Positions 3,159 through 61,579 of a stretch of 64,000 nt of DNA are shown piece by piece. Within the stretch, counting starts at the first letter, position 1; each line of letters begins with the position of its first letter. The DNA is from Imbricaverruca yamaguchii. Its lineage: Eukaryota > Arthropoda > Thecostraca > Neoverrucidae. A program made the translations under genes and the position numbers. The stretch covers positions 310,001 to 374,000 of the forward strand of contig JAOTOL010001310.1 in the NCBI GenBank assembly GCA_034440575.1. The letters are read 5' to 3'. The notes under the pieces are model-generated. The model saw only the letters and a list, made by a program, of their open reading frames with translations, had not been told where the DNA came from and ran no database searches.

Positions 3159-3168
3159 ATTCCATTTG

Positions 3169-3499: not shown

Positions 3500-3509
3500 A
3501 TTCCATTTG

Positions 3510-4786: not shown

Positions 4787-5565
4787 CTATTCAATATATT
4801 CGTACAACAATGTGCAGAGATTTGCATGCAGTGCTGCTTTAAATGTCCCTAGGCCTCTTAAGATTACCACATCTTCAGGCAGGGAATTCCAGGTGGCAGA
4901 GCATCTGAGGCTAAAAAATATCTTCCTGCAATCTACTGATGCTCGCCTGCGTGCCAATTTCAGGGAGTGGCCACATGTGTTCACTGAAGGTGCCAGCACA
5001 AACATGTCAGTGATCTTAATGGCAGAATGGCCATGAAAAATCTTCCAGCATTTAATCATGTCTGCTCGAATTAATCTACCTTTAACTGAGTACAAATCTA
5101 GTTTCCGTAATCGGGCTCCATAATCCAGACCATTCATTCCCTCTATGTTTCTTGTCCACCTTCTCTGTATCGATTCTAGACGCTTTAAATCCCCAATGTA
5201 ACCTGTGTTCGAAACACATGATGAAAACTCCAAAAGTGGCCTGACATAAGTAATGTATAGTGTTTTCATAAATTCAGGTGAGCGGCATAAAGTAGAACTT
5301 AGCAGGTTGCTGGCCAGGCTCCCAGCTTTCTGTACTATTCTATCAACATGTTGATGAAATTGCAGGTTTGAATCAACTGTGATGCCCATGTCAGTATGGA
5401 CCTCAACAAAGCTCACATGAAAACCATCCAGATAATAATTTGTGTAAGGACCAAGATTTATAGTCATATCAGCCTTGGTGTACTTTCAGATTGATTGATT
5501 ATTTGGGCTTAAGGGTGCGCTGACTGCGAGGTCATTTAGTGCCCATTGGTGTACTTTCAGAACTG
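4787..5565 (-). pseudogene. CR1-like LINE copy 2, 3' part (RT thumb and C-terminus)
   Basis: Minus-strand 4787-5467 is open for 226 codons and encodes the C-terminal RT region: LGVTVDS-like start (MGITVDSNLQF), LYITYVRPLLEFSSCV, ESIQRRWTRNIEG, LDLYSVKGRLIRADMIK and WNSLPEDVV. This is the usual end of CR1-type ORF2 proteins. The copy continues upstream at 7574-8802, separated by a 2,000-bp hAT-type insertion. A 56-bp insertion (5490-5545) also interrupts it. The protein is incomplete and cannot be functional. Confidence 0.85.
5475..5560 (-). mobile_element. 56-bp retro-insertion flanked by 15-bp duplication
   Basis: The LINE sequence TTGGTGTACTTTCAG occurs at 5475-5489 and again at 5546-5560. 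Between them sit 56 bp (5490-5545) absent from the related copy at about 355-370. On the minus strand the insert ends in AATCAATCAAT, a short tandem tail. This is best read as a very short 5'-truncated LINE or SINE insertion with its target-site duplication. Confidence 0.75.
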
Positions 5566-5573
5566 CACGTCAT

Positions 5574-7573
5574 CAGTGTCTTAAAATTACTTTTTCAGTG
5601 CCTGTGCGGATGAAAAACAAAATGACTCTGAGATAGTGAAAGATGAAAAATGCTGAATAGATGCATCATGATGAAAACCCAGATTGCATCATCATACTAA
5701 TAAAATAAACACATGGCCAGAGTAGCAAGCATAATCATACAAATTTGGACAAATTGCATGTTGCATCCACTCTTCCTGAACAACATTGTTGAGGTCAGTA
5801 CCTTCACGTGCATCTCATTTTGCTTCTCCCTTTCTTTATTGAGTTCATGAATGTAGCGAGGTTCTTGAAATGAAACAGGTAATTCCATTGTTTGGTACTT
5901 CTTCACATTAATCTTGCCACACATTATTAGTGCCATTAATGCCACAATTAATCAGACCTCACTGACTGTTCCGTCCCTTGGAAAATATACATGTTGCACA
6001 ACAATGTGGATGCTGGCCTCACTCAAATGCCATGAGCTGCATGTGGGTGTATTTGATTGGTTGGCATTGTGTTGCAGGTACCATCTACCTTGGCCACTGC
6101 CTTGCTGACCAGTCCTCATCATGCACAACTGATCATGAAGCCTACATCCCTGAGTGGCATTGCTGACCTATGCAATCCAGATAACTGTCATACCTGTGAC
6201 CTGTCACGTCCCCAAATGCTGAACCAGTGCCCGCAGAACGACCATATCACCAGTTCAGTGTCTGTGTCTGAGAGCACTTTCAAATAATTTGTCTGGATAT
6301 TTCTACATCTGCTTTTCGGCTGTAACTGGAGAGTAACTACAGCAATGTCACTAATACTGACACTGCTTTTGTTTTACTTTTTGTGATGTGTTTATGTCCT
6401 TAGTCATTTGGTCTCAAGGGAGCATCATCTCTGGTGAAGGCCATGCCACAACTCGATCAAACAGCTGGACTTTGGAAATAAATAGTACAGCACACCAACA
6501 TTTAATACAAGCATGAAATGAGGCATCTGAACAGTCAGCAACGACGCCATCAATAGTTGCATTGAAAGAGAAGAAACAATTGGAATTTTATTTCTCTGTT
6601 TAGATCTGAAGAGAATCATATATTAATATCGGAACGTTTTATCAATTATATTTTTCTTCAAAATACATGCCTACAATTATGACGCACACAGGACTTCTAA
6701 AAACAAACCTGAGCCCTTGTAAGTCGCTGAATAGGATAAAGGTTTGGGTATTTCTGTATTTATTAGTGTATATTTGTATGCTTGCATTTTTGTCTGTAAT
6801 CAGTGTTCAGATTATTAGTCTAACTTCTCTGCCTGCACACTCAGTCATGATATACAATGCTGTTAATGGTTCAGCTTATGGGTCAATCAGCCAGCCTGTT
6901 GTCATTCAGCTTGGATTGTGTAAGATTTAATAACTCGCTGATGCAAAATGTAACCAAAACTGCTTTGTATGGTTTAGGTGCAAGCTCTAGTTGAAAACAA
7001 TACTTTTCTGCAAATAAAATGTGCCCTGCTTTTCTGAAGAGCTTGAGTAAAGGATAATTTTAGTTCGGATCAGGCTATCTATGCTGGTGATGCCCTTGTT
7101 CCAAATCCCTCCTGCATTAGCTGACAATTACTTGGGTTTGGCCAATGTCATGATTCAGCCCTTAAGTGTGTCAGCTCAGCTGAATTTCTGGTTATGCTAC
7201 AGCTTTACTTGTCTTTTTTAAAGATGCATGGTATGAGTTTGTATTTCATGGATTCATGCATACTCATAGATTGTTGCACTTATGTTCATGCTATATAGTC
7301 ATCTGTGTTGTGAGGATACACTGTGAACTTCATGGCTAGCTTCATGAAGACACATCTAGTTCATTATGCAACAATTTTCAGCCTGCCAGGAACACCTTCA
7401 CTGCATGTCCAAAGACAAGGATGAAAACATTGCAAACATGCACTTTATTTCCATCACAACAACCACCATCTGTGTTTGTAATATGTTTATGAAAAGATGA
7501 GTCATCACCAAGAATGAAAAAAAAAAACTTCCATTAACTGACTGCATGCAAAATGGCAAATTGTTTTTGACTG
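5574..7573 (-). mobile_element. 2,000-bp hAT-type internal-deletion derivative of the 33798-43369 transposon
   Basis: The element starts CAGTGTCTTAAAATTAC and ends ...TTTTTGACTG. Read on the minus strand, 7573 down to about 6570 matches 33798-34889, and about 6550 down to 5574 matches 42299-43369. The roughly 7.4 kb between those points in the large element, including its transposase gene, is missing. Flanks are CACGTCAT (5566-5573) and CACAGCAT (7574-7581), an 8-bp duplication with two mismatches, as expected for an old hAT insertion. The insertion splits CR1 copy 2. It would need transposase in trans. Confidence 0.88.
5697..5924 (-). CDS. Small ORF (75 aa) conserved between two copies of the hAT-type element
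   Basis: Starting at MCGKINVKKYQTMELP, this ORF has the same length, frame and stop as 43019-43246 in the large element; about 65 of 75 residues agree. It has a charged middle (HELNKEREKQNE) and a hydrophobic C-terminus (QICMIMLATLAMCLFY) that could be a tail anchor. An upstream in-frame ATG at 5945 would add seven residues not shared with the other copy. I recognise no family. It may be a real small protein, an exon, or chance openness in a conserved terminal region. Confidence 0.4.
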   Translation of the reverse strand: MCGKINVKKYQTMELPVSFQEPRYIHELNKEREKQNEMHVKVLTSTMLFRKSGCNMQFVQICMIMLATLAMCLFY

Positions 7574-8802
7574 CACAGCATTCATTGCTAGCCCCCATGA
7601 CTTGGCAGTACCAACCAGAGTATCTATATCTTTTTGACCCTGTAAAATGTTAGCCAGTAGGTCTGAGACAGATTTGTACTTCAGTTTCATGTATATCTTT
7701 ATGTCATCTGCAAAAACCTTGCATTGAGACTGAATATCATTATGTACATAGTTCACATAGATCAGAAATAACACAGGACCTAGCACAGAATCTTGAGGTA
7801 CTCCACTCAGAACATCCCTAGATTTGCTTGAAGGCCCAGAGACAAGCATTTGCATTTTCCTCCCACAGATAAAATTTCTAATCCAGGAGAGGATTGTCTC
7901 TAAGGTCCCTAAAGCTCTCAATTTTGTCAGTAGTAGGAAATGATTAACATCAAATGCCTTTGAAAAATTGAAGAAAATTACATCCACCATATATCCCTCA
8001 TCTAGCCAGGTAGAGACAGTCTCATATGTTAGAAGTAACTGATCCTTTATGGAATGTCCACTCCAGAAGTCAAATTGTCCTTCATCCAGCAAATGATGGA
8101 CCTCCAAATATTCTGTGAGCTTCTCAACAATTATACATTCAAGAAATTTGCATGGGACAGAAGTAAGACTCACCAGGCAATAATTTAGTGGACCATTCCT
8201 CAAGACCTTTTTAAAGATTGGGATTACTTGTGAAGTTTTCAAACTGTCAGGAAGACTTCCAGTAGAAAGGGATGCGCTAAAAATGCTGAACAATGGTCTT
8301 ACAAGCTCCTCATGACAGGATACAATTAATTGAGGGTGGACCCCATCAGAGCCCATGCTGGAGGACCCATCCACCTCACTCAAAATTTTGAGCACATCAA
8401 CTTTAGAAATATTGATGCTCTGCAGCACTGCTTCAGTGGTTTGGTGTGGAGTTGGGTTTGCTAGTTTACTTGTGCAATATACTGAGGAAAATGCCCTGCA
8501 AATATTTCAGCCATTTCCTGGCAGTCACTTGTGAATCCATATTTCCCCCTCAATGGGCCGAGGGATGTTTTGCAGATTTTCTGATGTATGTCAGAGTGAA
8601 ACTCCTTGGAAGATACTTAGTGAATTAATGACAATTCATACTTTATCTGGGAGTGAATACTAAAATTTATATACTGTTTACTTAAATCTTGGAAAGATCT
8701 CAGTGAACGATCTGCCTGTGCAGACCGTCTCCCAAATCGGTCTCTGCCCTGCTTGTACTTTGTCCATGCATCCTTTCTCCTGCGGCTGGGGGTATACACC
8801 AT
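7574..8802 (-). pseudogene. CR1-like LINE copy 2, 5' part (linker and RT)
   Basis: Minus-strand 7505-8428 is open for 307 codons (its last residues lie in the inserted element). It encodes the RT fingers and palm: [62 protein letters not shown] and catalytic FADD. The segment 8617-8802 adds the pre-RT linker (KDAWTKYKQGRDRFGRRSAQADRS) in another frame with a stop between. The endonuclease is missing, so the LINE is 5'-truncated near 8805. It joins the 4787-5565 segment once the 2-kb insertion is removed. Confidence 0.88.
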
Positions 8803-33540: not shown

Positions 33541-34889
33541 AACCTACATTTTGAAGGACCTTAATAGCTCAATACTGCTACATTTGTATTGTATTTATTT
33601 GTATACGTGGTGGGAGCCAAACGTCCCACTCTGCCATTCAGCATGACATTAACTGTGAGGTGCTTCAATAGACACGTTTGTATCTTCGGAGATCAACTGC
33701 TGAAATTTGACCTGGTGTGGATAATTTGATTTGATATGTGGATTGGATGGTTGGAATCATTCCCGACTGACGGATTGCCAGCCGGTCTTTCTGGAGACAG
33801 TGAAAAAAATACACCATTTTGCATGGAAAGTCACAGTTAATGGAAGTTTTACGTTTTCATCCTTGGTAATGACTTTCATCTTTTCATAAACATATTACAA
33901 ACACAGATGGTGGTTGTTGTGATGGAAATAAAGTGCATGTTTGCAATGTTTTTAACCCTGTCTTGTTTTTTTTCCAGCAGGTATCAATAGTCTCACTCTA
34001 AGGTGAATATAGAATGGGCTTTGAGAAAATGCATATCATCAGAAAACCTAATGGACCTGTGGTGAAGATGTTCCTGGCATGCTGACAATTATTGTATAAT
34101 GAACTAGATGTGTATCTCCCTGAAGCTAGGCATGATGTTCACAGTGTATCATCACAATGCAGAGGATTATGTAGCATGAACATAAGTGCAGCAATCTATG
34201 AATATGCATGAATTCATGAAATACAAACTCATACCATGCATCTTTTAAAAAACATGTGAAGCTGTAGCACAACCAGAAATTTGGCTGAGCTGACACACTT
34301 AAGGGCTGAATCATGACATTGGCCAAACCCAAGTAATTGTCAGCTAATGCAGGAGGGATATGGAGCAAGGGGATGGGGCATCACCAGCATAGATAGCTTG
34401 ATTTGAACTAAAATTATCCTTTACTCAAGCTCTTCAGAAAAACAGGGAACATTTTATTTGAAGAAAAAGTATTGTTTTCAACTATAGCTTGCACCTAAAC
34501 CATACAAATCAGGTATTTTGCGTCAGCGATTTATTACATTTTACACAATCCAAGCTGAATGACAACGGACTGGCTGGATCAACCCATGAGCTGAACCCCG
34601 TTGAATATCATGACTGAGTCTACAGGCGAAGAATGCAGATTAATCATCTCAGCACTGATTACAGGCAAAGAATGCAGGCATACAAATCTACATTAATAAA
34701 TACAGAAATACCCAAACCTCGATCCTATTCAGCGACTTACGAGGGCTCAGGTTTGTATTTCTAAGTCTTGTGTGCGTCACAATTGTAGGCATGTATTTTG
34801 AAGAAAAATATAATTTATAAAATGTTCCGATATTAATATATGATTCTTTTAAGATCTAAACAGGAAAATAAAGTTCGAATTGTTTCTTC

Positions 34890-36839
34890 ATTTGTCTTAA
34901 CCTTGCTTTAATAAATTTCACAAATACTGCAAATATTAGCAAACATTGTTTATCAAGAACATGGGATGAAAAATTTCATCCTAGGGCTGGCACATTCCAG
35001 GAGGATGAAAAACACATGAAAATACAGGTGAATTTGTGGATGAATACTGGCGAGCATGATGGATAAATCAAAGATCAAAGCAAATATTTGAACGTCTCAT
35101 CATCTTCTACACCTTATAAACGGACAATAGTGCTCTGCCGCGCTCGGTACAAGGAATTATTCATATGTTCATCTGTGGGCTTTTTCGGCCAGTCTGAAGG
35201 ATGAAAAATCCAGGTAAACGCGGGGATTGATATGCGGAAGTGCTACGAATAAATAGCACAACAACTGGGATTTTCCAACTCTCCGTTCATTTTAGTACGT
35301 GAAAATTAGCACAAAACCACTTCCGAAGGTTTTCCTTACATGCTATATTTTTTACAACGCAAGAGCTCCTGACGTGTGGATGCTTGGAAAGTATGCTGCA
35401 AACGAAGACCAGTTCCTTGGTGATATGGCAAGGGAATACTATAAGTGAACAAGAATATAATTATTTCAAGTTCATTTTCTGATTTGAGCACAAAAAATAC
35501 TCGACATGTGCACATTTAAGTGAAAATTATGGTGTTTTTAAATTGCCATTTGTCGATAGCTCACTGGCTTTTTCCTTCGTCACAGGTAACAGCCTGAATG
35601 CCATAATTCTCCCTCGCAATGGAAATATTTGTTCCTATTTTTTTTCATGGCATTCTTTATATTGTTCGAAGTCCTTTCCAGTATAATAGCCTGCCAGCCG
35701 TGCAGGTTACATATACTTTAAAAAATTGCGAAATGTGGATGGTGTCCTGTGGCACTATAGTTTGTCACGAAAGCGCAAAACATCGTTGCGCTGAATTTTG
35801 TTTACATTCAATTGTTTTCATAGCCTTGCATTTGGCATACACGTGCGCACAGTGCAGTGTGAGCTCTATGTGTACTATCTTGAGCGGAGTTAACCAACCT
35901 TAAACCACCTCGGCCTACGTTGCACAGATGTGTGGTACAATGTAGATAATAAATATCTCAATTTACATTGGTGATATATTAGTGGCAGATCTGCGTGTGC
36001 TGTTCGAAGGAAAGCATATGATCAAGGTAGGGCGAGTGGATTCTAAGGTTGTTCTGCTTTGTTGGGAGGGGGAAAATTCAGAGCTGAATTAGGCTGAAAT
36101 AGATGGGAGAGGCGGTATTAGGTATATAGATCTGCAGGGGAGAGGCGGTATTAGGTCTATGGAGGCCGAATGGGCCGCCGGCCATGCCCAAAAGGGAACC
36201 CCACCTCATCTGCTGGAATACATACCCCTCTGGCCTCCTTTCCATCCCCTACTGTTGAAGCGCCACCCATTCGGGAGGTCGGAGTCCGCCCCTCCCCTTT
36301 GGTCCCTGCTTCCTAGGAAGGCAAGTTAGTGCCACCCCGGCACATCTTTACCCTCCACCAGCCCCACAGCTCAGCCACACGCTCTGTAAATTCTTGTATC
36401 CGACCCTATTTGAGACTGAATAATGTGATGCTGAATATCGCTACAGGAAAGGAGCCTTAACATGTTGCAAGGTGTGGACTGGGCTGGAATTATGGATCCA
36501 GCACCCAATTATATTGGCATGAGGACAAGTTTAAAAGAAACTATGAATTTACCAAAGAAGTAGCTAAAATAAGTAGCTAAAGAAACATGAAAGATAATGC
36601 AACTATGAGCCACAGGGGCCAATGGCATAGGAACAGGGCAGTGCCCCCCCACACACTTTGAAGCTCGTGGGCAATATCTGGCATCTTTTCATCTCCCCAG
36701 TAGAAAACATTCCAGTCTCATGGCATATCCTGCTGCCTCCCCCCCCACATAAAAAATATTCCTTATGGCCCTGACAGGTGCCATCTTGGTTACACTTTGT
36801 GGACATTAAGAACTAGTTGTCCACAAAATTTGTTGATTA
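34890..36839. other. Interior of the large transposon, no recognisable gene
   Basis: This segment is absent from the 2-kb derivative. Short ORFs only. 36160-36370 is GC-rich with CCCCTCC runs and may be an older insertion. Confidence 0.45.
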
Positions 36840-37690
36840 GTTATCCATGAAATAATTTTTGTAAAAAATTATTTTCTCCTTTTAATACTAGTATGCTATT
36901 TTTTAGACTGCTCTGTATACTGACCATGCCAATTCTGAGTGATAGCTGGTTCTTATGTTAACTACCTTGCTAGTAGAGAAAGACTGTCTTGTCTTTATCC
37001 TGATATCATTAACTTTGATTTTTAATTGGTGATCTAATAGCTAATTACATAATTTGTATTATCCTAGACATGTATCTGTTGCTGACCATGCATACATTTA
37101 AATACCTTGATGAGACCTCCCCTTATTTTTCTGTATCTAAGTGTACACACATTCATATCTTTATTAATCTTGTCTCATATGCTAGGTTGCTCAAATTACT
37201 AATCCTCTTTTGCACTCTTTAAATATTACCAACTTTTCCATAGCTATAGGGGATCAAGCTCCACAATTTAAAATGTGGCCTAAAATTGTGTTATTGCTTC
37301 TGTTGTATGTTGTAAGAGCATCTTGTCATGAAATCTTCATGCCACCTAGCACCAACCTGCTGTCTATCTGAAAGCCATAGCTCATACTGATTTTCCTATC
37401 AGGATTAAATCAATATGATGTCTTATCCACTTGTCTGTAGCAAAATAAAAATGTTAACGATATTTTTCAGCGAGACCAACCTTTTCCTAACACATGCTGG
37501 GTGTCTTGAATCAATATGTTCCCTTCCAGAAAAGCAACCGTTATGTGATTACTAATTTTTTAAAACATCGTATAGCCTAAGGATGTGGTCTTGCTGGTCT
37601 ATCATTTTTAACTTTCCCCTGTTCGCCTTACTTGAAAATAAGAACTGCATTTGCCAGTTTCCAATCTCCTGAAATTTCAGTACGAAATAT
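36840..37690 (-). pseudogene. Heavily decayed CR1-like LINE fragment
   Basis: On the minus strand, broken frames still read GDWKLANAVLIFK near 37650, a LxxRVQ-like DPL-LWKSW stretch near 37250, and CTLRYRKIRGGLIKVFKCMHG near 37100. The last is the CR1 C-terminal signature also seen in copy 3. Between the first and second blocks most of the palm, including FADD, is missing. Many stops. It lies inside the hAT-type transposon, so it inserted into it or was carried by it. Confidence 0.75.
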
Positions 37691-38007
37691 GATACAAAGT
37701 GAAATCGCTGGCTCTTTCACATTGCAGTCATGGCCATGGCCTGAAATCGCAAGTCACGGCTTAGTCACGACACATCATTTAGCAGATCTGGCATGGTAGC
37801 AGCTTCAAGCTATTTATATTATAGAAATGCAGCTGTTTGCATTACATAATCTTATTCAAAATAGTGTGGTCCCCGCATTGTCCCGACTAGACGCTGCCTC
37901 AATCACAATAGAGGTCGCGGCGCCTTGCCGGCGGTATTAACTGCAAATAATATGTCGCACCTCTACCACTGACCCACACTAATCTGTATCCGTTCTTTGA
38001 CAGTAAC

Positions 38008-38247
38008 ACCGCTGCTGCCTCAATCCTGTGTGCCGGTATCCTGCCACCCTGGTTTGGTTTGGCCGCATCGTCCGCCCAGCACCTACACCGCTGCTGCCTC
38101 AATCCTGTGTGCCGGTATCCTGCCACCCTGGTTTGGTTTGGCCGCATCGTCCGCCCAGCACCTACACCGCTGCTGCCTGAATCCTGTGTGCCGGGATCCT
38201 GCCACCCTGGTTTGGTTTGGCCGCATCGTCTGCCCAACACCTGCATC
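38008..38247 (+). repeat. Three tandem copies of a 79-bp unit
   Basis: GCTGCTGCCT starts at 38011, 38090 and 38169, and each unit carries CCTGCCACCCTGGTTTGG and GGCCGCATCGTC. Copies differ by only a few bases. A short echo (CGCTGCCTCAATC) occurs at about 37891. The array ends about 125 bp before the first ATG of ORF A, so it may act in the 5' UTR or promoter, or as binding sites for the transposase; that is inference. Confidence 0.9.
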
Positions 38248-38374
38248 GGACCTTCCCGTCATCATTCTGAGGTAGCTTTTTCACCTACCATTTTCTTGTT
38301 TTTGTCCTGTGTTCTTACGTCGTTGTCTTGCTGCTTGGATACGTGTGTATCAGGCATGGTGAAAATTAAATCTG

Positions 38375-39199
38375 ATGAAGCTGTGGTATGCTATATATAT
38401 CTTAGAAATATCAGAAAAAGTAATGCTAAGCGACATGCGCAAAACGTGCACAGGGTGTGAAAAACTTAAGGATTTTAGCAAGGCATGTGAGAGAGAGACA
38501 ATGCGACGGAAGAGGCGGGATCGAGATGTCCGTCCAGACCAGATTCGATGTAGCACTGCTGTGGGGACGTCTGGAGACGATGCCACGCCAACTGCACCAG
38601 CAGCAACCACTGACTCTGCCTCCCTCGACTCTGACAGTGATGTAGACGACCCCAGCCCAGCTACTGTCGAGCCGGAAATGTATGACGAGCCCAACAGTGA
38701 CCCCATGGACGAGACGAGACCGACAAGGACAGTGGTCATGAACCCAGACGATGTACCGCCGACAGACGGACACGAGACTGGACGCAGACCTGACGAGCGT
38801 ATGGACAGTATTTCAGTCGGCCACCCTGCCAACGTGGACTGGAACAGACTAAAATGTATTTCGGAAAGATTGGATAAAATCAATGCCGATGTTGATCTCC
38901 TCGCCCGGGAATTTGTGGTTCTTCGCCACAATTTGAGTGCAAACAACCCTGGCCGGCAAATCAGTGCACTAAAAGAATCAATCGACAATCTGAAGGAAGC
39001 CGTGCAGTCAGTGCTGATGGATAGGCGTGCTGCTGGAGGTGGACAGGGAGACGCCGGGATGGACACGGACACTGACACACCAACTGACGTTTTCCATTGG
39101 CTCGTGATGGACCACACAGGCCAGGGTGACTGTGCTCGGTGTAGCACCTGCACACAATTCGGCTCGAGGGGTGGGGGAAAAAAGCTGAGCTCTGGGTAA
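38375..39199 (+). CDS. ORF A of the hAT-type transposon: acidic, coiled-coil protein
   Basis: 274 codons; in-frame ATGs at 38375, 38423 and 38435 leave the start uncertain. A TATATATAT run at 38392-38400 would favour one of the later ones if it is a TATA box. Residues 25-50 hold a CxxC and a strongly basic MRRKRRDRD stretch (possible DNA binding or nuclear localisation). Residues 85-145 are acidic and disordered, 155-215 look like a coiled coil, and 253-259 hold CARCSTC. I recognise no family. Codons 269-270 are AAA AAG within the heptamer A AAA AAG (39178-39184). A -1 shift there enters ORF B's frame, open from 39145, giving a fusion of about 988 residues. Confidence 0.65.
   Translation: MKLWYAIYILEISEKVMLSDMRKTCTGCEKLKDFSKACERETMRRKRRDRDVRPDQIRCSTAVGTSGDDATPTAPAATTDSASLDSDSDVDDPSPATVEPEMYDEPNSDPMDETRPTRTVVMNPDDVPPTDGHETGRRPDERMDSISVGHPANVDWNRLKCISERLDKINADVDLLAREFVVLRHNLSANNPGRQISALKESIDNLKEAVQSVLMDRRAAGGGQGDAGMDTDTDTPTDVFHWLVMDHTGQGDCARCSTCTQFGSRGGGKKLSSG
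39178..39184 (+). promoter_or_regulatory. Candidate -1 ribosomal frameshift site A AAA AAG
   Basis: The heptamer lies in the correct register (zero-frame codons AAA AAG) inside the 55-bp ORF A/ORF B overlap, 15 nt before ORF A's stop at 39197-39199. ORF B is in the -1 frame. No strong downstream hairpin is obvious by eye within 40 nt. The alternative is a one-base indel in the A run of a once continuous ORF. Confidence 0.5.
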
Positions 39200-39240
39200 C
39201 TAAACCTGTCCATCTAGGCCGATACAAAAAGCAAAGGCTA

Positions 39241-41340
39241 ATGACCCACCAGAGCTCCGACCGACATCAACGCGCAACTGAAGTCATGAACGCGACCAAA
39301 CAGGTACCTACAGTAGGTGACCTGACAGCTGGGATGATATCTAAAGCCAAGGAAATGACGTTAAAAAATATGACGACAATCTACAACGGTGTCCTAAGGG
39401 GACACTCGTACGAGGATCATGCTCACGAACATTTACTGCTCAACACTCTTGGCTTTGACGTCGGAAACCAGCATCAGACCGGACCAGCCGCTGCCCAGGC
39501 TGTGGACGTCATCTATGACGTGTTTACCGACGAGGTATCGCGGCACCTGAAGACGCCGAACCCCGCGACTGGCCGCCCCCGACACATGCACTTGACAATG
39601 GACAAATTCACTGAGGCCCATAACCAGTGGCAGGCAGTGAATGTGCGAACTCTGGACAGCGACGGCTCCCCGGTGGTCGTGCACTGCACGACTGCTGTAC
39701 TGCGGAACTACACTGACCCAGTTCCGGACTACACGGCGACACAAACACCGACCAGCTCTGGGACACGGGACCGACATGAGGCCGACGGACGGGGGGTGAC
39801 GAGTCACGTCGTCGATTGTCTCAGACATGACTTCGGACTTACTGACGAGGACATCAGCATTGAGGTCACCTCTTCCTCGTCTGACTGTGAGGCAGTCTAT
39901 TCTGGCAGTAAAAATGGTTTCCGCCGGATATGGAAGGAACAATTTAACAGAAGTCATGTTCATCTAGATGACCGTGACCACCGCCTCGAGACTTTATTGT
40001 CGAAAGTGACGAACGAGGAAGAAGCGACCTGGATGGTGGAGTACATGGACAGCCTGCACCAGGTGATCAGCCTATTTCAGGGGTCAGGACTCCTGAAACG
40101 ACAGCTGCGGAGGGCATCCGCCCAGCTGGATGTGATTAGCCTGTCTTTGCAGCGGCTGATCGAAACCCGCTTCGTGGAGTACTTAGTCATGGCAGTGACC
40201 AAAGTCCTCCACAACCGAGCTGCCATGATCAATGTTCTCCAAAACATGATCGCTCAGGGGTCGCTTTTTACTGGGTCGGCCCAGCGGGTTCTCCGGACGC
40301 TGGAGAGCCGGGAGTTTGTGATGGCGTCGCTGATCATCATCGATGTGATGACGCCCGCTATGGCACTGGGTAAGGCTGGCCAGTCAGCGCTCTACTCGGT
40401 GTTTCGGGACCGCCAGGAAGTGGACAAGTATCTGTCCACCCTGAACAGAATTGCAGTGGGTGCATTCTCTGGCCAGCTGGAGAGGGAGGGGCCGGCGGTG
40501 GCTGACGGCACCGGTTTCCGAGGCGCCGAGGTCGGAGTGACCGAGCAGCACCGGCTGCGGCGTAGTGACATAGAACGCGACGCGACTGACATGACACAGG
40601 CGACTCGGCGACGAACTGACCTGGTGGCGGCGATCCTGCGACTTAGTCCAACGTGTCTTGACCTGACTGACATTGAACGACTCATAATTCACACATTCAA
40701 CATGGACAGGATCGCCTCAACCAGCGCCGACTCCGACTATGGTGAGGCGGCGTTTTCGAACCTGGCCGAGCGGCTGAGTCTGGGGAGTGTGAAGCTGCCA
40801 GGCCATCCGTGCAGCGACAGCTGCTCAGGGACCAAATGTGTGTGCCTCGTCTCCCAGTATCGCGTTTTCAAAGAGCGCGTGAGAGACAGACACAGTGACT
40901 TCGCGGAGTGGCTGCCAACTGACCAGTCCAGCGGTGTAAAAAGTTGGTGTCCCGAGAACGTCCTGCGCACCTTCCAGGACGTGCAGACTGGTCTGCACAG
41001 GGACATCCCTGATATGGTCGAGGTGGCAGAGATATGCCTGATCATGTCTCGAAGCCAGTCAGATACAGAACGGGTTGGAAAAACTGCAAAGCATGTAAGT
41101 GAGGGTCGCTTCGAGGGAAAATTTGATGAAACAAAAGAGGAAAACAAAGATAGGGCAAAGAAAGAAGTGTTCATCATCGAGAATAAGGTGCCTTTGAGAT
41201 TCTTTCCTGCGGCCGCCGTCACTGACAGATGGCTCAGAGATCACCGCCCAGCACTAAAGCGTACCGTGACTGACAGACAGTCCCTCACAGTTAAAAAACT
41301 GAACCGAGTACCGAGGCGCCTGAAATTTATGTTTTGTTAA
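39241..41340 (+). CDS. ORF B: hAT transposase-like protein, 699 aa, intact
   Basis: First ATG is at 39241, but the frame is open from 39145 and may be entered by -1 frameshifting. Features in order, compared with hAT and KIAA1586-like proteins as I know them: HLTMDKFTEA (Asp121, candidate first catalytic Asp), SSDCEAVYSGSKNG (Asp215, candidate second), DDRDHRLETLL (247-250, like the HRLEL of the family), ETRFVEYL (309-311, like the DTRW segment), a Cys cluster at 524-535, and a C-terminus with SDTERVGKTAK, VPLRFF and AVTDRWL (650-665) resembling the hAT dimerisation domain (ERGFS...NPAVxxWL). It is GC-rich with no internal stop, unlike all LINE ORFs here. AATAAA follows 33 nt after the stop. 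Similarity is judged by eye. Confidence 0.7.
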   Translation: MTHQSSDRHQRATEVMNATKQVPTVGDLTAGMISKAKEMTLKNMTTIYNGVLRGHSYEDHAHEHLLLNTLGFDVGNQHQTGPAAAQAVDVIYDVFTDEVSRHLKTPNPATGRPRHMHLTMDKFTEAHNQWQAVNVRTLDSDGSPVVVHCTTAVLRNYTDPVPDYTATQTPTSSGTRDRHEADGRGVTSHVVDCLRHDFGLTDEDISIEVTSSSSDCEAVYSGSKNGFRRIWKEQFNRSHVHLDDRDHRLETLLSKVTNEEEATWMVEYMDSLHQVISLFQGSGLLKRQLRRASAQLDVISLSLQRLIETRFVEYLVMAVTKVLHNRAAMINVLQNMIAQGSLFTGSAQRVLRTLESREFVMASLIIIDVMTPAMALGKAGQSALYSVFRDRQEVDKYLSTLNRIAVGAFSGQLEREGPAVADGTGFRGAEVGVTEQHRLRRSDIERDATDMTQATRRRTDLVAAILRLSPTCLDLTDIERLIIHTFNMDRIASTSADSDYGEAAFSNLAERLSLGSVKLPGHPCSDSCSGTKCVCLVSQYRVFKERVRDRHSDFAEWLPTDQSSGVKSWCPENVLRTFQDVQTGLHRDIPDMVEVAEICLIMSRSQSDTERVGKTAKHVSEGRFEGKFDETKEENKDRAKKEVFIIENKVPLRFFPAAAVTDRWLRDHRPALKRTVTDRQSLTVKKLNRVPRRLKFMFC

Positions 41341-41372
41341 ACATGAAAAGAGCTCTGCCAGTAAGAGATAGG

Positions 41373-41378
41373 AATAAA
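41373..41378 (+). promoter_or_regulatory. Possible polyadenylation signal AATAAA
   Basis: AATAAA 32 nt past the ORF B stop codon. A second AATAAA occurs at 42087-42092. Either could end the transposase transcript. Confidence 0.4.
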
Positions 41379-41554
41379 TGTGTTGCAATATGTCCTGACA
41401 TGCTTATCATTGTATGTGCGATGTCGATGAGATGGAGGAGAGGGAGAGCGGTATCCATTATTTCACAATATGTCTGGTCTGTTCATCTGTTCATGATCTG
41501 TTTCACGATATTACCGATGTATGCACATCGGTACAGCGAGTGCTCATATGAGCA

Positions 41555-41719
41555 AGGATGGTTGGTTATTGGCTTAACAACACGTCGACCGTTGAGTCAT
41601 GTAACATCGCCAATCTCTCACGCCGATTGGTCGCGGGCGAAGAGTAGCGACAGGTGAGACTAGAGCCCACAACCTTTCGATTGTGACACGAGCAGCTTAT
41701 CCCTAGACCGCTCGTCCCA
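41555..41719 (-). mobile_element. tRNA-derived SINE, second copy
   Basis: The reverse complement matches the SINE at 12671-12838: tRNA-like head with CTAGGGATAAGCTGC, box B-like GGGCTCTAGTC, the CCGCGACCAATCGGCGTGAG body, and a CCAATAACCAACC end. CATATGAGCA flanks it at 41545-41554 and 41720-41729. It inserted into the hAT-type transposon downstream of ORF B. Confidence 0.9.
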
Positions 41720-41924
41720 CATATGAGCAGGGAAGCTAGGTTGCTGAAATGTTAGTGTGGAAAAGTGTGTTCTAATTAGCATTTTGCTGTGAGACACCGA
41801 TCTGCACATGCATATGTAGAAAAAGAACACTGTCCTGAGTATGTTGTAAATGAGTGTGTGCCCCTTCAAGCAGACCAGTTTAATTGTTTTCTCATGTATT
41901 CATTCATGCTAAAGCGCGTGTGCC

Positions 41925-41945
41925 GGCGTGTCAAGCCGGCGCTTT
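41925..41945. other. GCCGGC stem-loop
   Basis: AAAGCGC, GCCGGC, a 7-nt loop GTGTCAA, then GCCGGCGCTTT form an imperfect stem around 41911-41944. It lies 3' of ORF B in the transposon. Function unknown. Confidence 0.45.
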
Positions 41946-43018
41946 CTGTCCTTGCGTTAATACTAGGAGAGCGCGAGAAGGTATGTTTGCATGATGGGGC
42001 GTTTTACCGAGCTTCCCCTAATGCGTGGTATTATAGTTTTTAAGCGATTATATCACTCAGACTTTAACGGTTATGGTTGTTGATGCAATAAAGCTCATAT
42101 TTTATGTTCCGAGTGTGCACTACATCATTGGCGTTGAAAGAACGTGGAACGATGGACAAACACAAGAGAAGCTGTTGCTTTCGCTGTTGACTGGTATTCG
42201 TAGAAACTATCCACATTTCCAGTCACACTCGCGATCATATCGATTTGAAGTGCAACCATGCACAATTAAAAGTTGTTATTGGCTTGGTTAGTGCTTCCGT
42301 TGACGGCGTCGGTGCTTACTGTTCAGATGCCTCATTTCACTCGTATATTAAATGTTGATGGTGTGCTGTATTATCTATTTACAAAGTCAAACTGTTTGAT
42401 CGAGTTGCGGCATGGCCTTCACCAGAGATGATGCTCCCTTGAGACCAAAATACTAAGGACATCAACACATCACAAAAAGCAAAACAAAAGCAGTGTCAAT
42501 AATAGTGACATTGCCGTAGTTACGCTCCAGTTACAGCCGAAAAGCAGACGTAGAAATATGCCGGCAGATTATTCGAAAGTGCTGTCAGACACAGACACTG
42601 AACCGGTGATACGGTCGTTCTGCGGGCGCTGGTTCAGCATTTGAGGACGTGACAGGTCACAGGTATGATTGACGAGGACTGGTCAGCGAGGCAGTGGCCA
42701 AGGTAGATGGTACCTGTAACACAATGCCAACCAATCAAATATACCCACATGGCATTTGGGTGAGGCCAGCATCCACGTTGTACATGCAGGTTTAAGTGGC
42801 AGGTCCTAGATGCGCTACATTTATCTTCTCCAAGGGACGGAACAGTCAATTGCTTCGCATTTACCTTTGTACCTTTGCACGCATCACGGTCTGCCATCAT
42901 ACACATTGAGGAGAACCACAGCCATCAAGCACCCTGCATGCACAGGTGAAACAAACACGTCCAAGTATAACATGCAATGTAGGTTTTTGATAGGACGGTG
43001 CACAGGTGTTCTTCCGCC

Positions 43019-43246
43019 ATGTGTGGCAAGATTAATGTGAAGAAGTACCAAACAATGGAATTACCTGTTTCATTTCACGCACCGTGCTACATTCATGAAC
43101 TCAATAAAGAAAGGGAGAAGCAAAATGAGAAGCATGTGAAGGTGCTGACCTCAACAACGTGGTTCAGGAAGAGTGGACACAACATACAATTTGTCCAAAT
43201 TTGTATGATTATGTTTGCTACTCTGGCCATTTGTTTATTTTATTAG
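43019..43246 (+). CDS. Small ORF (75 aa) at the right end of the hAT-type transposon
   Basis: Starts MCGKINVKKYQTM and ends with ICMIMFATLAICLFY, a possible membrane anchor. Length, frame and stop are shared with 5697-5924 in the deletion derivative, and about 65 of 75 residues are identical. A longer reading from 42998 adds seven residues that are not conserved. No family is recognised. It lies about 120 bp inside the element's right terminus. Confidence 0.42.
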   Translation: MCGKINVKKYQTMELPVSFHAPCYIHELNKEREKQNEKHVKVLTSTTWFRKSGHNIQFVQICMIMFATLAICLFY

Positions 43247-43377
43247 TATGATGATGCAATCTGGGTTTTCATCATGATGCATCTATTCAGCATTTTTCAT
43301 CTTTCACTATCTCAGAGTGATTTTATTTTTCATCCTCACAGGTTGTGAAAAAGTAATTTTAAGACACTGTCTGGAGA

Positions 43378-43784: not shown

Positions 43785-44428
43785 CGAGGCACCACCTTTC
43801 CGTGGTGGGGGGTGGGGGGGCCCCAAAGACCTGGCGACCATCATACCGGCGAGGGGTGTGACCAGGAGTGCCTCACTCGTCCTTCCGTCCATACGCTCCC
43901 ATTCCAATCCCAATGTCATTCCAACGTCTATGTCCTTCACCTGGCCCTGTAACACTATTCCTACTATGAGCAGGCAGGGTCTTCCCCGGTCCTGCCCACC
44001 AGCTCAGCTTTATCGGAGTAGCCACACCCCTCGGCCCGTCCCCCCGGGGTTGACGGAGTCCTGGAGGTTGAGGTCCCCCGTCGCACGGTGCTAGTTGTGA
44101 CGGGGGACCAACACACCTCTTTGGTCTTGATATCCCGGAGGGGCGGGTGGGTCCGTGGGGCCTCACACGGACCAAGTGGCTGGTCGCCTCGGGCTGGGGG
44201 CCTGGGATTCTTCCCAGTGTCTGCCGGCCCGGCCGACCGGGGTCAAGGGGTGGGCGGCGCTGGATCCTGGTCGGGGTGGTGAGTCTCTCTCCCGGCCGGG
44301 CGAAGGCGCCGCCTGCCCCGTATAGCTCCTCGGGCGCCTGGCGACCTCCCGTCCGCGGGACCCAGGCGTTCCCCGGTAGGGCCCCTATGGGGTGGGGTGC
44401 CCGAGGAGCCGAAACAAACACACAACAT
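43785..44428 (+). promoter_or_regulatory. GC-rich LINE 5' UTR
   Basis: Blocks such as GGGGTTGACGGAGTCCTGG, ACGGGGGACCAACACACCTC, ATATCCCGGAGGGG and GTGGGCGGCGCTGGATCCTG are shared with 59560-59800 ahead of ORF1 of copy 2. As LINE promoters are internal, this segment probably holds it. ORFs across it on both strands are not conserved in frame between copies. Confidence 0.7.
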
Positions 44429-44710
44429 ATGGCATCCAGACCAACTAAAAACACCCCTGGTCCCTCTCGTCAGGGCCAGACCAACCCATACTTTCGCCGA
44501 GATCGGCACACCTCTACGGAGGGTACCCCGGTGCCTCGTGTGCTTGTGTTCCGAGGGAGGAACAAAAACCTCGCGTCCCTATCCCCCGTTTCAGAAGAGA
44601 GACGGCTGCGACAGGTTCGGAAACATTCTAAGATGTGATAAACTGAAAGACGGAGCACTGGAGGTGAAATTCGTGGAAACAGAACAGGCAGCTAGGGCGC
44701 TTAACACGCG
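44429..44710 (+). pseudogene. LINE copy 1 ORF1, N-terminal part
   Basis: The start ATG at 44429 (MASRPTKNTPGPSRQ) aligns with 59951 of copy 2 (MAITQNKNTPGPSRR). After a frameshift near 44600 the ORF continues as CDKLKDGALEVKFVETEQAARAL, matching YEKLKGGALEVEF in copy 2. It is interrupted at the codon pair CTT-AA(G) by the TTAA element at 44701. Confidence 0.75.
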
Positions 44711-46012
44711 CCCTGGAGGGCCCCTGAAAATAACGCCCACTGGAGGGGGCGCATCTCAGCTCCTATGAAGGTTATAGCAACGAAATTCACAGGATGGATG
44801 GGCACCATAGTGAACTATATTGTGTGCAAAGTTCGTGACCTTAGGTCAATATCTTCAAGGTCAAATGAGGTCAAATAAAAAAAAATCCGGTTTTGGGTGG
44901 CTTGGCTTGTCATTGTTATGGATCGCTGTGGTTGTGTTTAAATGCTCCAAAATTGGCATTAATGATGTATTGGACATTACTAATGATGCAACACAGATGT
45001 CAGATCCGCCATTTGATCTCAGGTCACCTATATATGAGCACTTTATTAGGACATTACCTGCTCCAGTTACCGTAACCGGGCTCCCATCCCGACTGCTCCG
45101 TTGGGCGGCTCGGCACAATCGGCTTCGCAAAGAAAGGAGTGAAATACATGAATAAAGTATGGAAACGCTTGGACACACAATGACAAACAGTAGATTTCGG
45201 GATGTATAGGGAGGAACATGTAAAGTAACATCAATCGCATGCCAGTCATTTGCATTTATGACACATTCCAGTTGACCGAGTTTGGTTCCATTAGCCTTTC
45301 ATGAACTTGACCGCACTTGACCTCGGCGACCTAACATGACTTTTAAATTATATAGAATAACAATATGCATCAAACAAGTCGCTATTGTTGTCAAGAACAC
45401 TTCCCTATTGTCAATATACGGGAAGCGCATCAGCGCCGATTTTTGTGGTCTGGCGCTGCGAATTATTTTTACTTTAACGGCCCTTAACTTGAAAACTTCT
45501 CGGCCGATTTTCATTTTTCTTGCTTTAACCAACGCGCCGGTCATTTCTAAGCAGGTACGCAAAAAACGTGGCGTATATCGGCCGGTACAATATGGAGTTA
45601 TGTATGAAAAATCGGAAGGATTGGCGGATTTCGCCATACGCCCTCTAGGGCGTGTGTTAACCTGTTATGAACTTGACCTGACTTGACCTCGGTGACTTGA
45701 CATGACTCTGGAACAATGTAGCATGACAATGTACATTAAACAAGTCGCTAGTTTTGCCAAGAACACTTCCATTTTGCTAATATGCGGCGATTTTTGTGAT
45801 CTGGCGCCGATAAAATTTTTTGACTAGCGACCCCTAACTCGCACAAATTTTCAATTGATTTTCATTTTTCTTACTTCAAACAACGCGCCGGTCGTTTATA
45901 GGCACGTACACAAACAATGGCGTATACCGGCCAGTAAAGTCTGGAGTTATCTACGAAAAACCGGAAGGGTGAGCGGATTTCGCCCCACACCCCCCTCCAG
46001 TGCGCGTGTTAA
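44701..46012 (-). mobile_element. TTAA-flanked element, tandem-unit copy inside LINE ORF1
   Basis: TTAA at 44701-44704 and 46009-46012 flank 1,304 bp bounded by inverted repeats (CACGCGCCCTGGAGGG at the left, CCCTCCAGTGCGCGTG at the right). An internal TTAA with the same terminus at 45657-45660 divides it into a complete unit (44705-45656) and a second terminal unit (45661-46008). Removing it with one TTAA rejoins GCG CTT AAG TCA in frame with LINE ORF1. TTAA targeting is typical of piggyBac and Kolobok; no transposase is present, so the superfamily is open. Confidence 0.9.
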
Positions 46013-47526
46013 GTCATCTCAGTTTGAGTACGGTGTGCGGAGGGACGGGAAAAAGAGAATGAAACAGTAACAATCACAGTACAACCTCATAAAACAAAGA
46101 GCACGTCGCGGGGAGTTATAAACTGTTTCGATCTGCGGGAAGTATCTGAGGACGATATCGTTGATGGACTGACAAATTTCGGAGTCATCGCAGCCAGAAA
46201 AATGAAAGTGAAGAGAGTTTCCAACCAACAACATAATTTTGACATTTAATAGCACAGACATACCTCCCTAGATCCGAGTTGGCTACCTACGAGTAAAAAT
46301 AAGACAGTTCCCAAATCCCAAATCCAATGCGCTGCTTCAAAGGTCAAAAATTCGGACACACTACCCAGTATCGCCGAAACCGCCCAGCTTGCAGCAAGTG
46401 TGCCTCCCATGAAAATCCTTTTGAGAATTGCGATTCAGAAAGCCCATTTTGTGCCGACTACGGTGATGGGCAGGTACCCCATACGGCGTTTGATCGTGCG
46501 TGCCCAAATTGCATTAGAGAAAAAGAAATTATTTCACTGAAGCACATCAACAAATTAACATTTAAAGAAGCTAGAGAGCTATGTGAGAGGTCGCATCCCA
46601 GACAATCTTACGCATCAAAGGCCAAGAACACCATGTTACCCCCACAAAACATACAGCCCAATAGGGCCGCCGAGCTGATCACCCAGCTCACAGCCCTTCT
46701 CCGAGCATTTGGAGTGCCTCTGGCGACACCAGAGAGGCAGGCGCAGCCCCTCCCACTAAACACCAAAACCACCGAGGTCTCACTCCCACATGACACCGAT
46801 GATCAATCCCAGGCGTCATCTCGATCGGCCTCTGTGGGCGGGGATTGGACGCTGGTCACCCGGTCTAAGAGGCCTGCTCGTTCCCCCTACCCAAGCCCAG
46901 CCCCTCCCCCTTCTACCACACCATCTGCCTTGAAATCCCCACCTCTTACATCCCGTTCCCTTCCAGCCCGTCCCCTTTCAGCCCCCCCTCCCCTCCCTCG
47001 CGCCCCACCACCACGCATAAATAAATCCTCTCCACCTCCTCCCTCCCTGAATCCTCCCCCTTCCCGAGAGCCGGGCCTCGCCATCGCCCTCGCCCTCAAC
47101 ATCTACAACCGCGCCTGCATCGCCATCCAAAAACGCGCACCGACAAATCAAAATTCCAGACATAAGCTTGCAAATTCAGGGAGCCGAAAGGCGTGCCCGC
47201 GAAGCCAAACGAGCTCGGCACGCTCCAATGGAAAAGGCCCGTGTCAAGGGCCGCCAAGGTACAGACATCGCGCCTCCCCAAACTCAGCCTCCCCGTCGCC
47301 GCGACGGCGAGTGGAGGGACCGGGGGGAACGTCTGAAATGGGTCCTCCGCCTCCGCCGCAGCCGAGTGTCCCCCCAGAAACGGGGCTTCCTCCGTCCGAA
47401 TCCCCGCCGAGGGTTAGCTCACAGAGGTCCCGCCCAAGGACAAATTCACTCGGGCCCGATCGGAGCTACCTCCCTGAGTCCTCGAAAGACACTCCTTCAA
47501 GACACTACACCGGAACTCAATTTTAA
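46013..47526 (+). pseudogene. LINE copy 1 ORF1, RNA-binding and zinc-knuckle part
   Basis: 46013-46070 continues the frame with KSSQFEYGVRRDG and stops; 46065-46260 reads INCFDLREVSEDDIVDGL in another frame. 46327-47526 (399 codons) starts at the knuckle region: CFKGQKFGHTTQYRRN has lost two Cys of the CCHC knuckle seen intact in copy 2, CSKCASHENPFENC lacks its His, and the third FCADYGDGQVPHTAFDRAC lacks a Cys. A Pro-rich tail follows, as in copy 2. It is a gag-like nucleic-acid-binding ORF1, now inactive. Confidence 0.78.
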
Positions 47527-47699
47527 AACCGCATCCGACTTTTTCTACCAACAATGACGTACACACGTGACTATCTGGTTTATGTTTTTCTTTTCTTATT
47601 AACTCACCAAGCCGTCGCTGGGTTTGTGATGTCCACTATCCATTGTGTATAACAATATCTTTTGACCACGCTCATGTTTTACTGTATTAACTTACTGAT

Positions 47700-48889
47700 A
47701 TCGTAGTTTTTCAGTGGAACTGTGGGGGAATCAAATCCAGCTTCAATGACCTTCAGCATCTCTGAAGTTCCCGCACGCCGTTAGTTGTATGCATTCAGGA
47801 AACGAAACTGGCTCCAGGTGCTCCATTTCAACTTAAAAATTACACTATTTTACGAAAAGATGTGCTTTCTAGCACTGCGTCACATGGCGGTGTACTCCTT
47901 GCTGTGCGCAACTCTGTCCCATTCACACATGTACCTCTCTCTTCAAATATTCAGTGTATTGCTGCTCGTGTAGTAATAAACCATCGTACTGTTTCCATAT
48001 GCAGCATATACCTATCACTGGGCAGACTGTTTTCACTTTCCGATCTTTTTCAAACTGTGGCTCAACTCGCACCTCCGGTGATGGTGTGTGGCGATTTTGA
48101 TGTGTGTTTAATATGTTTTAATATCTTGAATTTCCGCACCACTTTCTTTGGGGCTTAGCCAGAATTACTAGCCGTGGACGTGCAATGGGACGTTTTACAA
48201 GCGATTTCCCTTTATGCATACTTAGCACGGGAACACCAACACATATTACATTACCGACCGGACAGACGTCCGTGCTGGACCTCACTCTCTGTAGTCCAGA
48301 AATTGCACCTGTCTTGGAATGGTCGGTGGATAGTGATCCGTATAACAGCGACCATTTTCCTGTTTACTCTCATTTCGTTAATCGAGGTACGGTTGCCCGA
48401 CGACCTTCAAAGTGGCTGTTTTACCGAGCTGACTGGGAAGCTTTCCAAACTGACCTTGAAAGCATCCTCCGCGGCCACTCCGATGAATTAGCCATCTCCG
48501 TGGAGCCATCCACTTCTGCAACTGTGCAAAGTGCCCAGCGGCACATCCCCCGGTCATCTGGAACGTCAATTCGAGTACCAGTCCCATGGTGGTCCGATAA
48601 GTGTATGGAGGCTATCCGTTCTAGGAAGAAGGCATTCCGTATATTTAATAACAATAGCTGCACCTACAATTTAATAGCTTTTTGCAAAGCACGAGCGTTC
48701 CCCCCGACGTATTATTGCCGAGGCGAAGCGAGACTCGTGGAAATCGTACGTATGCACTTTAAATCGTACCACGTCACTATCTACTGTATGGTCCCGCCTA
48801 AAGCGTTTCTCTGGAAAACACGCCCCAGTTCCTCTCCCGGTCTTGCACATGGCAGGACAGGACATCATCGACCCGGAAGAAGTTGCTGA
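47700..48889 (+). pseudogene. LINE copy 1 ORF2: endonuclease and linker
   Basis: 47703-48110 encodes an APE-type endonuclease in broken frames: QWNCGGIKSSF, CIQETKLAPG (metal-binding Glu), GGVLLAVRNSVP, ICSIYLS and VCGDFD. 48185-48889 (234 codons) carries the domain end (TGTPTHITLPTGQTSVLDLT, YNSDHFPV with the catalytic SDH) and the linker (VPWWSDKCMEAIRSRKKAFRIFN). Aligns well with 61851-62588 of copy 2. Confidence 0.8.
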
Positions 48890-52150: not shown

Positions 52151-52750
52151 TAGCGTAATGCTATACGATATCGAGAAAACCTGTCGGCCTCAACTACAAT
52201 GGTGGCGTAACTCATCCCAGGCACATCATGACGGGCGTGGTTGAAAACGGAAAAAATGGGAGGCAACCTAAGAAACCGGTTTGCGTTGGACCTTGGCTGT
52301 TAAAGTGCGAGACCTATGTAGTTCCTCCCAGCGTGTTCAGTGCAGGCAAAAGCTTATGTGGTAATTGATTCGAACGATGGTAAACCCGTTGCTGAATCCC
52401 AATGTCAACACATATACCCCTCTGGAAAACTCGAACGAATACGACGCTACTAAATTTCGCATTCGTAAATTATCAGCGTCGTATATGGCAAATTCGTACG
52501 AATACGGGAGTGCAACATCATACCTATAAATCCGTGCGATAATGCAAATTTGTTGCCTAGCAGAGCGAAATTTTCCACCCAAGCGAAAGCAGAACATAGC
52601 CAAGGTTCATTTTATTCACGAATGGGCTGGAAGTAGAAATTTCTCACGCGTGCTGATTAACCATTCTTTCATTTTTTAATGACAGATAATGTGCGGAGCT
52701 CGTTGATGGAGTAGAACGGCTTTTAGCATTTTTGGTAACTCCCAAGTATT

Positions 52751-52918
<168 letters not shown>

Positions 52919-52962
52919 TATGCATCTATATATATACATACATACACATGCATACATACATT

Positions 52963-57214: not shown

Positions 57215-58010
57215 CCTAGCCTAACCTCCCATTCGAGATAAAATCATGGATTGATAATCAAATGGGGTATTTTGATAGATGGAAAACTTGGTTGTTCTTG
57301 TGGCAAGAGAATTGTCTAACCTAAGATGTCTATGAATAAAATGTTGTGAAATCAAAGGTGCATATTGAAGTATATGTCTGTCCTTATTTTCAGTTTGGAT
57401 TCTCCATCTCAGCCTTCTCCTGAAGGGGTAGCTTCTACCTCCAACCTGTCCTGTCTCGATCTTCCGCCTGCACCAAAAGTCGGCCGCAGTCCAGCCTCTG
57501 ACTGCTGAGATCCAGAGTTGCACCACCCTAACGAGACTGAGATCAGCTTGCTTGCTGTTACTCCAAGTAATAAAAGAACATTAACAATTTCCTCAATAAT
57601 GATTATGTTGGAGACAGCTGCTAATGTGGTCAAGTAAACAGCAGGCCAGGGTTTTTGGACTGTGGAAGGAGTGGGAATACAAGAAATAGGCAACCGGTTT
57701 AATGGTTATAGGTTACGATGCTAAATATCGATAACTTTTAGATACTTTTCTTCAATTTTTTCCTTCCACAAAGGTAAGCCTGTTGTTAATGCCAAAATAA
57801 TTTGACATAAGCCATTGTGAGTGTATACTACAATACATTTGCCGACATTGCTATTAAACCAAACATAATAGCAGGCTGAGCATCCTCAAAATCCATCCCA
57901 ACCCTCCCATGCAAACCCTAGGCACGCTATTTTGGGGGAGGGAGGGGCGGGGCTGACGCCAAAATCCGAAAGTTCGCCCCACCAAAAACTGGTGGGCTAG
58001 ATCCACCAGA
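57215..58010. other. No recognisable gene
   Basis: Short ORFs only. Contains GGTTATAGGTTAC at about 57703, shared with the 25866 inverted repeat. Confidence 0.4.
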
Positions 58011-58011
58011 T

Positions 58012-58190
<179 letters not shown>

Positions 58191-61490: not shown

Positions 61491-61579
61491 CCCAGTCATT
61501 TTACGAGATGTGCCCTCCCCCACCTCCTTCCCGGCTGGGTCCCCAGAAACGAGGGCCGCCGCCTTCAGACTCTCCACCG

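Follow-up and report, generated by a model that had tools for sequence, protein, structure and literature searches.

We analysed a window of 64,000 nucleotides from the barnacle Imbricaverruca yamaguchii (contig JAOTOL010001310.1, positions 310,001 to 374,000; coordinates below count from the first letter of this window) and confirmed that 33798-43369 is a mobile DNA element with an 8-bp target duplication. With a probability of about 0.85, we read the block as a DNA transposon that moves by cut and paste and belongs to a diverged hAT-like family of unusually large elements. The name hAT is right for its mechanism and probably right for its descent.

Ends of the element and its copies in the genome

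The element and its parts are as follows:
33798..43369, plus strand: complete element, 9572 bp, CAGTG to CACTG, with ends that recur in other genomic copies
33790..33797, no strand: left target-site duplication (TSD), TCTGGAGA
43370..43377, no strand: right TSD, TCTGGAGA
33798..33802, plus strand: left terminus CAGTG, conforming to the hAT pattern (T/C)A(A/G)NG
43365..43369, minus strand: right terminus CACTG (CAGTG on the opposite strand); the inverted repeat is perfect over 5 bp only
33798..34889, plus strand: left arm, retained with small indels in a 2-kb derivative
42300..43369, plus strand: right arm, retained with small indels in the 2-kb derivative
34890..42299, plus strand: interior absent from the 2-kb derivative, breakpoint read by eye

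A preliminary description of this DNA had proposed a 9.6-kb element with CAGTG and CACTG edges and an 8-bp duplication, accompanied in the same window by an internal-deletion derivative. Both proposals held, as the repeat edges and the exact TCTGGAGA coincide and 5574-7573 matches both arms of 33798-43369. TCTGGAGA stands exact directly outside both edges, and the likelihood of a chance match is small because only 64 of 2,000,000 random 8-mer pairs drawn from the window were identical. The word occurs 8 times in the window versus 1.83 expected, and only 2 of these 8 copies abut independently defined repeat edges. Past CAGTG, the two ends of the element showed no clear pairing. Judged by eye, the right breakpoint of the interior may sit as much as ~14 bp to the left of the position listed, with filler of a few bp.

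We searched the assembly (767,457,503 bp in 1430 contigs) with a left-end query of 166 bp (40 scored of 230 candidates) and a right-end query of 170 bp (40 of 129). Among the 39 other left-end matches, we retrieved 10-kb stretches for 20 (later extended for 6) and stretches of ~2.4-2.6 kb for 19. The right end was not reached in any of the 19 short stretches, with C1064 and C1426 paired later with right-end matches, and it was not found within the fetched stretch of L017, L019, L023, L026, L029 and L030. For L011 (C915) and L020 (C993), right ends were likewise paired later. Right-end matches were mostly left unpaired; C1280 and C726 have right ends, and their left end was not recognised in the fetched stretches.

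The 8-bp flanks agreed at 7 or more of 8 positions in 14 of the 18 scored copies with both ends located, window copy included, and were exact in 9:
Exact flanks: window copy; L012, 9220 bp; L014, 11136 bp; L015, 10451 bp; L016, 8558 bp; L018, 13222 bp; L025, 1151 bp; C993, ends 23,407 bp apart; C1426, ends ~11.7 kb apart
Flanks agreeing at 7/8: L022, 7704 bp; L027, 4486 bp; C915, ends 21,594 bp apart; C1064, 9510 bp; C1345, ~13.2 kb
Flank misses: 2-kb derivative, 6/8; L024, 5/8; L028, 1/8; L021, 1/8

The flanks of L028 share 6 bp once shifted by 2 bp, and the right end of L021 reads GACACCA. L013 (exact TAATGGAA if the left end lacks CA) and L056 (TATATATA within a TA repeat) were excluded from the 18. 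The lengths for C915, C993, C1426 and C1345 are end-to-end distances across interiors that were not read through.

These results showed that other copies do not stop at different points but share the same ends with 8-bp duplications. The complete long copies that had been anticipated were also found: L012, which is ~98% identical to the window element, L014, L016 and others carry the same order and exact TSDs. The long copies that were read measure ~8.6-11 kb when nested inserts are excluded, and copy lengths in the family span ~1 to 11 kb, or more with nested insertions. L015 contains an insert of ~0.8 kb, and L013, L014 and L023 have in common a tandem duplication of ~1.2-1.4 kb that takes in the 5' part of the transposase gene together with the 79-bp repeats. 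Further deletion classes number at least three, with junctions in element coordinates at 3511/8378 (L024, L027, L028), 4085/7880 (L022, L047) and 192/8675 (L025).

L018 (C1408) harbours, at ~2589-6163 in element orientation, a nested, conventional-looking hAT element of ~3.57 kb (by eye); AGCGCCAC flanks it at either end, and its 15-bp inverted repeats agree at 13/15 positions. A match to PF05699, the Pfam hAT dimerisation model, at C1408:1469227-1469415 falls within this nested element.

The 2-kb derivative and its host repeat

5574..7573, minus strand: deletion derivative, 2000 bp, flanks CACGTCAT / CACAGCAT, 6/8 agreeing
5128..8275, minus strand: LINE-like (long interspersed nuclear element-like, by eye) repeat broken by the derivative; a copy without the insert lies at 1-1074

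When 5574-7573 with 100-bp flanks was compared with the window by BLAST, matches in inverse orientation at 87-94% identity covered 33798-33964, 34052-34889, 42300-42668, 42670-42781, 42811-42848 and 43019-43369. In gapped alignments, identity was 90.8% to the left arm (996 aligned columns) and 92.5% to the right arm (916 aligned columns). One terminus of the derivative is CAGTC instead of CAGTG. The host repeat provides independent support for the derivative's ends, since 5128-5490 and 7578-8275 match 1-362 and 378-1074 and the insert is absent from the latter copy.

The derivative is thus an internal deletion of the same family, as had been proposed, but direct descent from the 33798 copy did not hold up: given the divergence of 7.5-9.2% and the few bp of filler at the deletion junction, it derives from a related copy, and at least two other loci have the same junction. 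Three scored matches cross this junction (40 scored of 196 candidates), namely the derivative itself, C1350 and C676. L056 (C1350) is a 2127-bp copy whose TATATATA on both sides is uninformative because it sits in a TA repeat, while L057 (C676) is a partial match in which no ends were found.

At 1-1074, a paralogous repeat copy and not the same locus as the derivative, ~15 bp stand where a single 8-bp target is expected. An excision footprint was considered there but not favoured, as the reverse transcriptase-like frame is kept (by eye) and the copy resembles unoccupied sequence; the ~15-bp difference may be an ordinary indel.

Just left of the derivative and within the LINE-like repeat, 5475-5560 (coordinates counted from the flanking alignment) holds a 56-bp insert with the 15-bp repeat TTGGTGTACTTTCAG at each side. 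LINE-like open reading frames (ORFs; zinc-knuckle and reverse transcriptase-like, by eye) also lie at 43981-48889 and 59506-63909, with related stretches at 43981-44484 and 59506-60006.

The transposase gene and the subterminal motifs

38006..38242, plus strand: three copies of a 79-bp unit in tandem, lying just upstream of the transposase gene and also present in other element copies
38356..38457, plus strand: transposase piece 1, in frame 1, with the start and, by eye, a zinc-finger-like N-terminal stretch; 53% by tblastn with P0008
38459..39184, plus strand: piece 2, linker and start of a zf-C17orf113-like stretch; tblastn with P0001 24% and P0008 32%, frame 2
39169..41340, plus strand: piece 3, catalytic part and C-terminus, frame 1; ORF from 39241, 699 aa
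39601..39603, plus strand: proposed first catalytic Asp, D121 (TMDKFTE)
39883..39885, plus strand: proposed second catalytic Asp, D215 (SSSSDCEAVY)
40168..40173, plus strand: candidate counterpart of the hAT RW motif, assigned by motif
41068..41070, plus strand: E610, the proposed catalytic Glu (SQSDTERVG), matched by motif to Hermes E572 (SAASERTFS)

The predicted transposase is one gene of ~990 codons, split into three frames by two frame changes. Its 699-residue ORF is 62% identical, over the full ORF length, to P0001 (1003 residues). The gene pair of the preliminary description was rejected: P0001 has a single frame, the window matches run through frames 1, 2 and 1, and L013 and L014 match P0001 10-1002 and 44-1002 without a change of frame, interrupted by 2 and 1 stops, respectively. 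At the A-rich junction at ~39175-39184, which we take to resemble a -1 slip site, programmed frameshifting is less likely than a lesion or an assembly error, because relatives and genomic copies are single-frame. An autonomous-type element, as the block had been called, describes the layout of the family but not this copy, which is a decaying member and, since its gene is broken, not autonomous as it stands.

A protein search of the genome with the transposase gave 79 matches (64 of 243 candidates scored). No complete, uninterrupted transposase gene was present among the 20 loci fetched at length, 8 of which had a transposase match. Among the scored matches, only the window copy, with its broken 5' part, is stop-free over residues 1-699. 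The close family looks mostly decayed in the copies seen. We also found a sister transposase family at 31-33% identity, with 12 scored loci and open frames of 953-1480 residues, 11 of the 12 being stop-free (for example L068, C1304:1503824-1505773); judged by these frames, it is possibly young, active or domesticated. A weak transposase match at 17510-17632 reached E 0.001-0.07 (7-kb search, 15 queries), where shuffled proteins reached 0.097 in the whole window, and may be what remains of an old, related element.

By eye, D121 is Asp in 12 of the 13 sequences covering the site (Asn in P0013) and D215 in all 12 covering it. E610 is Glu in all four sequences whose C-terminus is homologous; the tails of P0006 and P0012 seem unrelated, and these two proteins align there without Glu. 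D121, D215 and E610 are candidate counterparts of the Hermes triad D180, D248 and E572, of which E572 is the one residue whose place in the Hermes sequence was found. Opposite the R318-W319 pair of Hermes, the candidate site reads RF in the window and RL in the sister protein L068. Hermes ranked first in two fold searches and in VIA-align, and it is on these low-confidence predicted models that the likeness to its RNase-H-like core with an all-helical insertion rests.

As in zf-C17orf113 proteins (PF25431), a finger precedes the catalytic part in 5 of 8 relatives scanned, all below the Pfam cut-off (the best two scores were 28.9 and 29.3 against 29.5); the protein database annotates this domain for P0001 and P0007, and in the window copy the frame change cuts through the finger. 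A hypothetical protein of Amphibalanus amphitrite, FJT64_016985 (P0012), marks a relative through a partial match, with 71% identity over 14% of the query.

Short motifs recur near both ends of the element:
43266..43334, minus strand: three subterminal GATGAAAA motifs, at 43266, 43294 and 43327
33854..33861, minus strand: subterminal GATGAAAA near the left end; others at 34965, 35004 and 35200

In 33798-35397 plus 42270-43369, GATGAAAA occurs 7 times, and no 8-mer exceeded 5 in 300 shuffles; the word and regions were chosen after inspection, and the shuffle test uses the maximum over all words. Among other 2.7-kb segments of the window, 4 of 23 also had an 8-mer at least 7 times, some in tandem repeats. 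Three of the seven motifs (34965, 35004, 35200) lie within the part absent from the 2-kb derivative. All three right-end motifs were within 2 bp of place in 9 of 12 other copies checked, with displacements of 1-2 bp in L022, L024 and L027, and common descent accounts for part of this conservation. The Hermes N-terminal zinc finger binds subterminal repeats, according to the available part of PMC10368747, and on this analogy the repeats suggest candidate transposase-binding sites.

A SINE-like (short interspersed nuclear element-like) insert lies within the element at 41559..41718 (no strand), also inside the aligned stretch of other element copies such as L012; a second copy, in opposite orientation and 88% identical, lies at 12672-12831. 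Long AT-rich simple-repeat arrays with strong self-complementarity lie at 52747-52944 and 58010-58189.

Relation to hAT transposons and proposed mechanism

The hAT assignment was stated too firmly in the preliminary description, as its basis is the ends, the TSDs, motifs and the ranking of folds, not a sequence profile. The family resembles hAT elements (Hermes, Ac, hobo; PF05699) in its 8-bp duplication, its terminus, its SxxER-type motif, its internal-deletion derivatives and its candidate subterminal repeats. The terminus pattern is that given in the available part of PMC6027215. Short copies that keep their ends and lose internal sequence are also described in the accessible portions of the sources on Ac/Ds (PMC3260210) and BuT2-type elements (PMC3942097); the difference is that the 2-kb class here keeps arms of ~1 kb, and a 1.15-kb class exists too (L025).

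Other features set the family apart from hAT elements. PF05699 matched no family protein tested, and the inverted repeat is perfect over 5 bp, compared with ~10-25 bp in hAT elements in the part of PMC3942097 consulted. The family also differs in size, since hAT elements are given as 2.5-5 kb in the source portion available, a descriptive norm rather than a strict criterion; the window element has 9572 bp, and the other long exact-TSD copies have 8558-13222 bp, the longest with its nested element. The transposase gene of ~990 codons is a further difference, and at the candidate site the protein would have RF/RL in place of RW.

Target preference was compared at 14 target 8-mers. For the Ac-group preference nTnnnnAn, as stated in the excerpt available, T occupied position 2 in 7/14 and A position 7 in 6/14 (joint p ~0.025, with an assumed background of 0.275). 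The Buster group prefers nnnTAnnn, and TA at positions 4-5 was found in 0/14.

One alternative is that the family is a superfamily-level lineage sister to hAT, with ends recognised mainly through subterminal rather than inverted repeats. In its favour, the hAT profile misses the proteins tested, and none of 150 scored PF05699 loci in the genome (618 candidates) overlaps the 79 transposase matches, among the matches listed (by eye); the length, the 5-bp repeat, RF/RL and the mostly stop-free sister family point the same way. The Hermes-first ranking, the hAT-type termini and the 8-bp TSD favour the wider hAT group instead, and we consider the sister rank unlikely. This alternative overlaps our preferred reading, differing in rank and not in mechanism, so that the odds do not sum to one.

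Less probable still is another superfamily that is hAT-like only at its ends. P, Merlin and Kyakuja-Dileera-Zisupton (KDZ) elements also make ~8-bp duplications, and the missing hAT profile match and the very short inverted repeat would fit them. However, no P, Merlin or KDZ family was listed at E<=10 when 12 members were compared with Pfam, although a protein of such a family could go unmatched; Hermes came first in both fold searches, and the CAGTG terminus and SDTER motif fit hAT. Finally, two independent repeat insertions, or a tandem or segmental arrangement, flanking a gene by chance might be imagined from arms of merely 1.1 kb each that are directly joined in the derivative, but L012, L014 and L016, with the same order and exact TSDs, refute this reading and leave it practically no weight.

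Under the preferred hAT-like reading, the fixed ends, the 8-bp duplications at different targets, the deletion classes and the one long gene were observed, and the chemistry and binding would be as follows. The predicted gene product is a transposase that carries zinc-finger domains at its N-terminus and an RNase-H-like core (D121, D215, E610) interrupted by a helical insertion. Subterminal repeats of the GGATGAAAA type would be its binding sites; it would cleave at CAGTG, and its insertions would have an 8-bp stagger. Deletion derivatives with both ends intact, 5574-7573 among them, would depend for their movement on transposase made elsewhere.

We tentatively suggest, as a possibility rather than an expectation, that the family forms a distinct lineage of large transposons (~9-11 kb), related to hAT but deeply diverged from it, with a zinc-finger transposase of ~1000 residues, 5-bp inverted repeats, end specification by GGATGAAAA subterminal repeats and a possibly active sister family with mostly open frames, overlooked by the standard hAT profile. 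Because the Pfam hAT dimerisation model recognises no family protein tested, despite hAT-like ends and duplications, profile-dependent annotation could leave such elements unclassified among the repeats or take them for host genes. The sizes and common deletion junctions of the copies record the origin of non-autonomous elements, and the family, with its inverted repeat nearly gone, is well suited to asking how a hAT-type transposase locates the ends of its element.

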